A DNA stretch of 64,000 nt from Sycon ciliatum. Its lineage: Eukaryota > Porifera > Calcarea > Leucosolenida > Sycettidae. The stretch lies in the NCBI RefSeq assembly GCF_964019385.1, contig NC_088645.1:45361729-45425728 (forward strand). Direction: 5' to 3'. The position numbers were made by a program, and so were the translations under genes. Below, one piece after another: positions 52,101 to 55,157 of the stretch (position 1 is its first letter; each line of letters begins with the position of its first letter). A model generated the notes under the pieces. That model did no database searches and was not told where the DNA came from. It was given only the letters and a program-made list of their open reading frames with translations.

Positions 52101-55100
52101 TGACTTCATCGTCGGAGTCAGCGAAGTCACAGGCGAAGGGCACCATCAGCTCTTGGGTTGCAACCAGTGAGTTGCCTCTGTCTTGTCTGTATTCGTCTGG
52201 TCAGTCCGCACAGCTGACGGACTTGTTGCGGGATCATCGGATCTATGCGCCCGCTTTTCGTCGTTGGGGATGTTGGACTCGTAATTTTTTGGAAATTCAC
52301 GGAATGTACATGTAGTTAGTATCATAATCGTTTAGCCGATAAGCCGATCGTTATGGTATCAGCTAAGGCACTAAGGAAAAAAAGGTAATCGCTTCTGCAC
52401 TAGCTAAAATAGTAACGATGCTAATGAAGAGTGTTGTTGTTGTCGTCGACGTCTCTCTTTCGTCTTGCCACTGCCTGATTTAACATGTGCCTTTCCTTCC
52501 CTGCTCTCCTGTGTTGTTGTTATTGTTGTCATGCAGCCAGTAACATACGTCTGACTGACACAAACGCAGACACCGTATCCGACGAGGCCGAGGGTAAGGC
52601 CGCCAGTAGGAAGTCACGGCCCAGCATCATCAGCCTGACGAAGGGTAGCACGTACGAGCTGCTCAACACCAACGAGGGTTGTGCTGGAGGTGGTGGTGGT
52701 GGTGGTGGCGGTGGTGGTGGTGGTGGTAGTAGTAGCCACGGTGAGAACCCGCACCACCCAGACAGTGCACGGTACAATGCCTTAGATGACGTGACCGAGC
52801 AGCACAAGGCGACGCAATTGCTGCGCCTCGCGCACCGCGATCACAACAAGCTGACCAACCAGGCGAGCATGTCGTCAATGCTGCATGCACAATCATCCAC
52901 GGGCACATACCTACAGGCACAAGATGAAGGATACGAAGTAAACATGCCGCAGGCACTGTCGCTTGCGAAAAGCTACGAGGAGGCCATGCTCACATTGGGG
53001 ACGTCCCCGGACGACAGTACATGTGCTAGTTATGCACCGATCAACACCGTCGACTCGGACCACTCGACGCACACCACCTACCAGGACTTGGCGCGCTTAA
53101 GAGGACCAGCAGAGGACATGCTCCATGGCAGCAAAGGTGTAGACGTGTACGACCACCTCAACACCTCGCCAGCCGCACAGCCCAACAGCACGGCGCCAAG
53201 CACCCTCGGCGGGGCAGCGGATGAGGACCTGTACGACCAAGCCACCGCACAAACAGCATTCAACGGCGCAGATTACGCACAGCTGCCTGCGCTGGTGCCA
53301 GCTGCTGGCCCTGCTTCACAGAGCCACATTGCCCCCAAGCTAATGGCTACCAACGGCAGTGGGCCACATTTGACTGCACATCCTGCGGCAGGTGCAGCTG
53401 AACAGCACAAGTCAAGCCATGTGAATCCACAGTCTGCACAAACCAGTGACAGAAAGCTGGATAGTCCCAGCTTGAATGGCAAAACTGGCACAGGTACAAA
53501 TGACCACAAACTGCAAGCTGAGTTAGATTCACCAAGGGCGGCGAGACTAGCGTCGGATGCTTCTCACGATCAATACCAGTCCGTGAAGAAGCTTAGCAGC
53601 AGAAAGAGTAATCCTGTCTCCGTCGTGAAGCAGGCGAGAACGCCCGAAGCGCTGGCTGGCGCCCAGTCCTCGCAGGCTCCAAGTCTCTTGCAGTGCATCA
53701 CAGGTAACCATGGCGACGGGAGCAGTAGCAGCGGTGGCGGCGGAGCCAGTCGTCCGATGTTCGACAGCGACGTGCAGGATACGTACGCCTTGCCGCGCAC
53801 TCCGTCAGGCCGGAGTAGTCCAAAACCTGGCGAGACTATGTACGCTATGTTGCAGACGCCGCCCGCCAAACAAAGCTGTCTGATGAGCGATGAGACCATT
53901 GACGGCGTGTATGCGGCACCTCTAGACAACAGGAATCGGAACAACGGTTTGATATCAAGTAGTAATAGTACGACCCGTATTGCTGACGACGTCTTGCAGG
54001 ATTTGTACTCAACGCCTAATCAGACAGCTGCTAATCCTGAAGCATCTCTACCACTGTCGGGCCAAAGCAGTTCCCAGTTTGACCAGGCAGCAAATGAGGT
54101 ATATGCATCTCCTCTGGATCAGCGGAATCAGAAGGAAGAGCTGAAGCCGAGTACGAGCATGGCGCTAGACAACATGAAACAGATTAGCGATGAAATCTCA
54201 GAGGATCTGTACTCAACGCTTCACACATCGTCCACTCCCGAACCTCAAGTGGCTTCAGGGACGTCGGGTCGAAACAATCCAGATCTTGACCATCCCTCTG
54301 AGAACATGTACTCGTCACTTGCTGCAGGAGGGAATCAGAAAGAAGGGCTGAAGCCGAGTAGTAGCTTAGCGCTAGACAACATGAAACAGATTAGCGATGA
54401 AATCTCAGAAGATCTATACTCAACGCTTCACACGTCGTCCACTCCCAATCCTCACGTGGCTTCAGCTACGTCGGGCAGGCACACGCCAGGACTTGACCAT
54501 CCCTCAGCAGACATGTATTCATCACCTGTTGCAAGGAGGCAGACGGGTGCCGGGATTGTCCCACGTAGCACGGACAGCATCAAGAACAACAAGACTGTCG
54601 TGGAAACATCACAGGATCTCTACTCCACCCTTGGCGCCTCAGCTCCGAGGAAGGGGGAATCCCCCTTGCGGCCAGGGGACTCCCCCTCGTTGCCCACCCG
54701 CAACAATCCCAAGGCCGAGCAGGCGGGAGGGGATAATATGTACGCATCGCCTCTTGCCACCAGCCGGAAGCATCAGCAGAAGGAGCTGATGACGTCCAGC
54801 AGCATGATTAATGTCAATACAAAGAAGAAGAAGAAGCAGATGAGTAGCAGCAAGGCCTTGCAGGAGCTCTACTCTACACCGCAGGCTCTGCTCGGCAATG
54901 TACCAGACTATGTGGAACAGCAACGCGTTCCAATGGATGCTCAAGATGTCTACTCAACACCACAGGCGCTGGTAAGCAATAGCCAGTACGATGGAGAGCA
55001 GCAACATGCTCAAATGGATTCACAGGACGTCTACTCGGCACCTAATATGTCGGTACGTAAAACCAAGCAGCCGTCGGCACGAGCAGATACTGAGCGCTGC

Positions 55101-55157: not shown

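Follow-up and report, generated by a model that had tools for sequence, protein, structure and literature searches.

Transmembrane proteins with YxxP repeats on the cytosolic side have been described in choanoflagellates, where five are listed (PTSG_05573, 12435 and 12436; A9VAL3 and A9V449; PMC5043372). The S. rosetta rows in Table 1 of that study are transmembrane proteins with 5-10 YxxP motifs, and one member of the choanoflagellate set has extracellular EGF repeats (PMC5043372). Peptides of one of these proteins bind a Crk-type SH2 domain, and YxxP binding has been reported for both mammalian and choanoflagellate Crk (PMC5043372). A second precedent comes from Monosiga, in which the tail of RTKB2 holds six RM2 repeats, one phosphorylated unit of which binds an SH2 domain (PMC3584944). 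BCAR1 orthologues have been found in metazoans only, with YxxP counts for Cas of 6 in Amphimedon, 6 in Trichoplax, 10 in Nematostella, 13 in Saccoglossus and 15 in human and mouse (PMC5043372, Table 1).

We analysed a stretch of 64,000 nucleotides from the sponge Sycon ciliatum (contig NC_088645.1, positions 45,361,729 to 45,425,728; hereafter the window), which holds the exons of a candidate receptor with a long, tyrosine-rich tail (Table 1). Like the choanoflagellate proteins, this receptor would combine a transmembrane segment with several cytosolic YxxP motifs, the junction between the two being a predicted one in the window. The accessible portion of the choanoflagellate study mentions no NIDO, VWD or 31723-32110-type domain, assigns C-terminal SH2-like domains to three of the proteins, and describes the proteins as pre-metazoan-specific, with no mention of a sister set bearing other motifs (PMC5043372). 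The window tail resembles that of Monosiga RTKB2 in being repeated, disordered and tyrosine-bearing, but RTKB2 is a receptor tyrosine kinase (PMC3584944), whereas Pfam recognises no kinase domain in the window tail; a receptor tyrosine kinase reading was rejected on this ground. Because of these choanoflagellate precedents (PMC5043372, PMC3584944), receptors joined to tyrosine arrays already count as a known kind of protein. The stronger finding here is that the sister tails differ from one another in motif while each keeps largely to one, which the first-pass annotation of the locus had missed. We found no paper in the open-access literature on a NIDO/EGF receptor family with arrays of different motifs, and the sequences apparently represent a metazoan receptor family with motif-specialised docking arrays.

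Table 1. Features of the candidate receptor gene, in window coordinates; exon joins are predicted.
Feature	Position	Strand	Remarks
Three EGF exons	913..8244	+	inside 913-1191, 3896-4186 and 8085-8300
Laminin-type EGF exons	10284..12263	+	PF00053, E 1.8e-24 and 9e-8
NIDO exons, two ORFs	15005..15952	+	PF06119, E 5e-5 (below cut-off) and 8.6e-9 (above)
VWD-like exon, recognised by eye	22388..22582	+	Pfam VWD E 0.2, below cut-off
Conserved domain without Pfam match	31723..32110	+	19 further genome matches
EGF pair exon	37110..37388	+	EGF_CA E 2.6e-12; phase 1-1
EGF exon	38906..39046	+	EGF_3 E 1.8e-8; phase 1-1; weak acceptor (score -0.8)
Transmembrane exon	45334..45477	+	phase 1-1, then basic stop-transfer KRKKSRRK; weak acceptor, very strong donor
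Predicted phase-1 intron, transmembrane exon to tail exon	45478..52536	+	contains Ty3/gypsy-type LTR element
Cytoplasmic tail exon (predicted)	52537..55157	+	873 aa, 28 Tyr, 9 YxxP + 11 YxxL; stop 55155-55157
Distal array, Y417 to Y866	53784..55133	+	mostly [DENQ][LVM]Y[SA]x[PL], more uniform than proximal sites
Two tandem 207-bp (69-aa) copies	54124..54539	+	two motif tyrosines per copy

The stop-to-stop frame around the tail (52479-55157) encodes 892 aa, of which 873 are counted from the acceptor, and is the second longest of 5,525 N-free stop-free runs in the six frames of the window; the longest is a retroelement frame. YxxP and YxxL together account for 20 of the 28 tail tyrosines, against a mean of 4.1 and a maximum of 13 in 20,000 composition-preserving shuffles, and the earlier estimate of about 20 in 28 proved exact. 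Directly before the tyrosine, a [DENQ][LVMIT] pair stands at 13 of the 20 motif sites, while S or A occupies +1 at 16 of them; the first-pass description of D/E/N/Q followed by L/V/M as the prevailing context is borne out for the motif tyrosines and not for all 28. Sites in the proximal tail (Y40 to Y347) are irregular, and between Y459 and Y779 the spacing is 32-43 residues. The composition of the tail is disorder-like, with F 3, W 0 and C 5 among its 873 residues. No Pfam family scored above cut-off in the tail, SH3 and CAS_C included, no second hydrophobic stretch was seen within it, and no second copy of it was found elsewhere in the genome. A PDB sequence search with the tail returned 88 matches, and among the 60 listed nearly all fell over its poly-glycine stretch. 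Two strong donors inside the exon, at 52593 and 52740, could give a shorter predicted tail.

The two 207-bp copies suggest how such an array is built: judging from them, the tail has grown partly by tandem duplication. Between the copies, pS is 0.208 (10 changes) and pN 0.145 (23 changes), and a pN/pS of about 0.65-0.7 in two short comparisons offers a weak hint of selection. When similar contexts were collapsed, 23 remained, 15 of them with P or L at +3 (binomial p 5e-8). Since the collapsed set is still enriched, tandem duplication alone is insufficient to explain the motif signal.

We scored splice sites with weights set from general knowledge. The donor of the transmembrane exon (CAG/GTAAGC, after 45477) is matched in score by 2 of the 4,342 GTs in the window, itself counted; the tail acceptor at 52537 is matched by 53 of 4,192 AGs, and the weak acceptor of the transmembrane exon by 274 of the same 4,192. 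Donor and tail acceptor are both in phase 1, the transmembrane exon was the sole match in a scan of 39000-52000 for phase 1-1 transmembrane exons, and the EGF-EGF, EGF, transmembrane and tail exons joined together give 1,060 aa with one terminal stop. The length of the predicted 7-kb intron is mostly due to an inserted LTR retroelement. This Ty3/gypsy-type element (47153-51490) has identical 135-bp LTRs and is enclosed by an inverted repeat of about 250 bp (46534-46784 and 51492-51739, 95% identical). A 20-bp tandem repeat in 122 copies (42684-45126) lies just before the transmembrane exon, and a single-exon MED21 gene (57884-58282; Pfam Med21 E 2e-20) lies downstream of the receptor.

In its predicted ectodomain the receptor is comparable with NIDO proteins of the MUC4 type, among them SUSD2 and Mesh, with which it shares NIDO, EGF and one transmembrane segment, and perhaps VWD by way of the VWD-like exon. 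The first-pass label "MUC4-like" is upheld in part, by a NIDO match above cut-off; it is less well served by the VWD-like exon, which scores below cut-off, and by AMOP, for which the genome gave 0 matches at E 0.001, a silence shared by the control genomes and possibly caused by introns that split the domain. The window is likewise absent from the 6 VWD matches in the genome, where introns may again split the domain. Duplicates of the NIDO exons were seen at 19076-20240. The stretch of about 4 kb that contains these exons occurs twice (12716-16313 and 16514-20684; pieces 92-100% identical) on either side of a 200-N gap, and this doubling may be an assembly (haplotype) artefact. EGF-like frames, recognised by eye, also lie upstream of the window (locus L029). 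The earlier remark that MUC4-class tails are very short agrees with human MUC4, whose tail is 22 aa (PMC5354666), against 873 aa in the window tail exon.

Paralogues were found by searching the 538-Mb genome with the 31723-32110 domain, which is cysteine-ended and has 23 invariant columns over 8 aligned copies. There are 20 genome matches when that of the window is included, and seven of the others are near full length at 43-49% identity. For four of these seven (C12, C3:44.61 Mb, C3:37.81 Mb and C7) we read the downstream 20-40 kb: in two of them a transmembrane exon precedes a single large exon with a tyrosine array, in a third the tail is short, and the fourth showed neither feature. The C12 paralogue has EGF exons, a transmembrane exon (L054:3389-3526, taken from a scan restricted to phase 1-1 exons) and then an array exon of 553 aa with 29 tyrosines, 13 of them in YxET (7 YDET, 5 YAET, 1 YEET), and no Phe or Trp. 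In this paralogue a phase-0 acceptor (L054:9320) scores 6.6 against 4.8 for the phase-1 acceptor used; the part of this tail that was searched has no second copy elsewhere in the genome. The C3:44.61 Mb paralogue, on the minus strand, has EGF exons, a phase 1-1 transmembrane exon and then an array of 460 aa with 15 tyrosines, eight in YxN, behind a modest acceptor (2.5 or 1.9). At C3:37.81 Mb the frame of the transmembrane exon stops after a short tail with one YxxP; a 76-aa frame with six tyrosines nearby (L046:7941) was not counted, having no supporting acceptor. In the 20 kb read for the C7 paralogue neither a transmembrane segment nor a tail was accepted: the phase 1-1 scan was empty, two hydrophobic frames that had been flagged were dismissed, and the long frames look retroelement-like.

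Matches to the YxN tail also lie downstream, on the same strand, of two further close paralogues, at C3:44300698 (99%) and at C3:43979926 (74% over the last 67 residues, the preceding part reading N). In all, C3 holds four of the related genes in a span of about 1.4 Mb. A cluster on C10 (17.83-18.00 Mb, L059) holds frames of 830, 748 and 587 aa with homology to the YxN tails of C3, and 33 tyrosines, 12 in YxN, were counted in the part read. At a partial domain match on C13 (19.56 Mb), no transmembrane segment or tail was recognised in a 4-kb stretch.

These layouts bear on whether the tail belongs to the receptor at all. The tail exon might instead belong to a gene of its own that lies behind the receptor by chance and encodes a cytosolic docking protein, either without introns or with two exons, starting at 52485 or in an upstream exon. 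An in-frame ATG is indeed present at 52485, ahead of the tail acceptor, a retroelement occupies the 7-kb gap before the tail exon, and the junction is a splice model drawn from sequence rather than from a transcript. The ATG, however, falls within a pyrimidine-rich stretch leading up to a good acceptor, and two paralogous receptors have a same-strand array exon behind the transmembrane exon, so we consider a separate gene unlikely. The fusion of transmembrane and tail exons in the window gene is likely: the phases match, the joined exons stay open and two paralogues have the same layout, in keeping with the first-pass proposal that a receptor crossing the membrane once ends in a long array of tyrosine sites.

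We compared motif classes between the three tails. The window tail has no YxN and no YxET among its 28 tyrosines beside the 20 YxxP/L; the C12 tail, outside its YxET sites, has 2 YxN, 0 YxxP and 1 YxxL; and the C3:44.61 tail adds to its YxN sites 1 YxxP and 5 YxxL, three of these YxxL being YxN as well and YxxL being mildly enriched (20 of 5,000 shuffles had as many). Acidic residues before the tyrosine are not enriched in the C12 tail. With repeats collapsed, which reduced YxET in the C12 tail to 3 of 18 contexts, none of 20,000 permutations was as extreme in its distribution of motif class by tail. On these counts the tails appear largely separated by motif, a separation that is large but incomplete. 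A control that ranked arrays dropped frames shorter than 250 aa or with simple repeats or X runs; the window tail, with its poly-G, was also dropped, and five loci overlapping the window were left out. Among the 35 frames kept, ranks 1-4 went to two C12 pieces, the C3 tail and the C10 frame (z at least 6.2), followed by a frame with three YxxM (z 5.4) and others at 3.9 or below.

The same counts bear on two further readings of the tail. One takes the YxxL sites to be mainly endocytic YxxPhi signals and the repeats mostly an expanded linker, with SH2 docking minor, as 11 YxxL among 28 tyrosines and growth partly by tandem duplication might suggest. We find this decidedly improbable, since YxxP does not fit AP-2 sorting and the motifs preferred in the sister arrays, YxN and YxET, to our knowledge correspond to no sorting signal. 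The other is an immune or allorecognition receptor of ITAM/ITIM type, working via Syk- or SHP-type tandem SH2 domains, which could draw on the YxxL sites and on the clustering of related genes on C3. Yet just one YxxI/L pair has ITAM spacing (6-12 residues; at Y166) among 28 tyrosines, one tyrosine (STYELL) fits the strict ITIM pattern [ILVS]xYxx[ILV], and the -2 residue is D or E at 14 of the 28, which makes such a receptor highly improbable. An ITAM array as the design of the tail was rejected on spacing.

The first-pass annotation had also called the tail Cas-type. Like p130Cas/BCAR1, the window tail has serial YxxP motifs in a region without a recognised domain, but p130Cas/BCAR1 is cytosolic and has SH3 and FAT-like ends, neither of which the tail possesses, and typical Cas sites have D at +1. 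Nine YxxP in series might point to a Cas (BCAR1) family member fused to the receptor. Against such a fusion, neither SH3 nor CAS_C was matched in the tail, and the sole CAS_C match in the genome lies elsewhere, on C1 (G000:C1:25701851 region), in a 649-aa frame that also has SH3; we give this reading almost no credence. By its domains the C1 frame is a Cas orthologue, and it carries only 2 YxxP, fewer than its counterparts in Amphimedon, Trichoplax, Nematostella and human (PMC5043372). With 11 of its 20 motif sites being YxxL and S or A prevailing at +1, the tail fails the Cas label as a matter of membership, and the label is loose as an analogy. SH2 domains gave 86 matches in the genome, some with in-frame stops, and the best of them include what we take to be SH2-kinase exons of Src and Tec type. 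A search for innexins returned 0 matches in this genome, and its control was silent as well.

We think it probable that the tail exon encodes the intracellular part of a non-catalytic adhesion receptor, type I with one membrane pass, whose array recruits SH2 adaptors. The open frame, the motif enrichment, the splice phases and the paralogues with the same order of transmembrane and array exons all point this way, and we infer that the tail is tyrosine-phosphorylated and bound by SH2 domains. The receptor would run from an EGF array through laminin-EGF, NIDO, the VWD-like exon, the 31723-32110 domain and further EGFs to the transmembrane segment and tail. A ligand or a neighbouring cell would cluster the ectodomain, upon which Src/Abl-type kinases would phosphorylate the array, and the phosphorylated array would gather multiple molecules of an SH2 adaptor that prefers Pro or Leu at +3. 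For Yxx[P/L] a Crk-like adaptor is the leading candidate, with Nck, Vav, PLC-gamma and SHP-type SH2 domains possible; the Y[SA]xP form is similar to sites of paxillin and Abl. Among the sister arrays, YxN fits Grb2 and would recruit a Grb2-like adaptor, and YxET fits, and possibly recruits, a Nck- or Src-like one, the least sure of the three assignments. One ectodomain class could be wired to different adaptors if a single phase-1 tail exon were exchanged or amplified anew, with tandem duplication building and homogenising each array.

A wider proposal, which we hold to be evenly balanced between right and wrong, is that these NIDO/EGF receptors form a family in which each tail is a largely motif-homogenised, single-specificity SH2 array (Yxx[P/L], YxN or YxET), that tandem duplication redirects receptors towards new adaptors, and that the receptor carries much of the YxxP load, with the Cas orthologue nearly bare. 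The choanoflagellate study suggests that, before animals arose, Crk was connected to the membrane through YxxP transmembrane proteins, and that Cas was co-opted in animals (PMC5043372). Such a receptor beside an SH3 and CAS_C protein in one genome would suggest that both solutions coexist. The sister tails, with their different and largely uniform motifs, would offer a natural experiment on the evolution of SH2 specificity and multivalency, in which each array motif predicts its adaptor.
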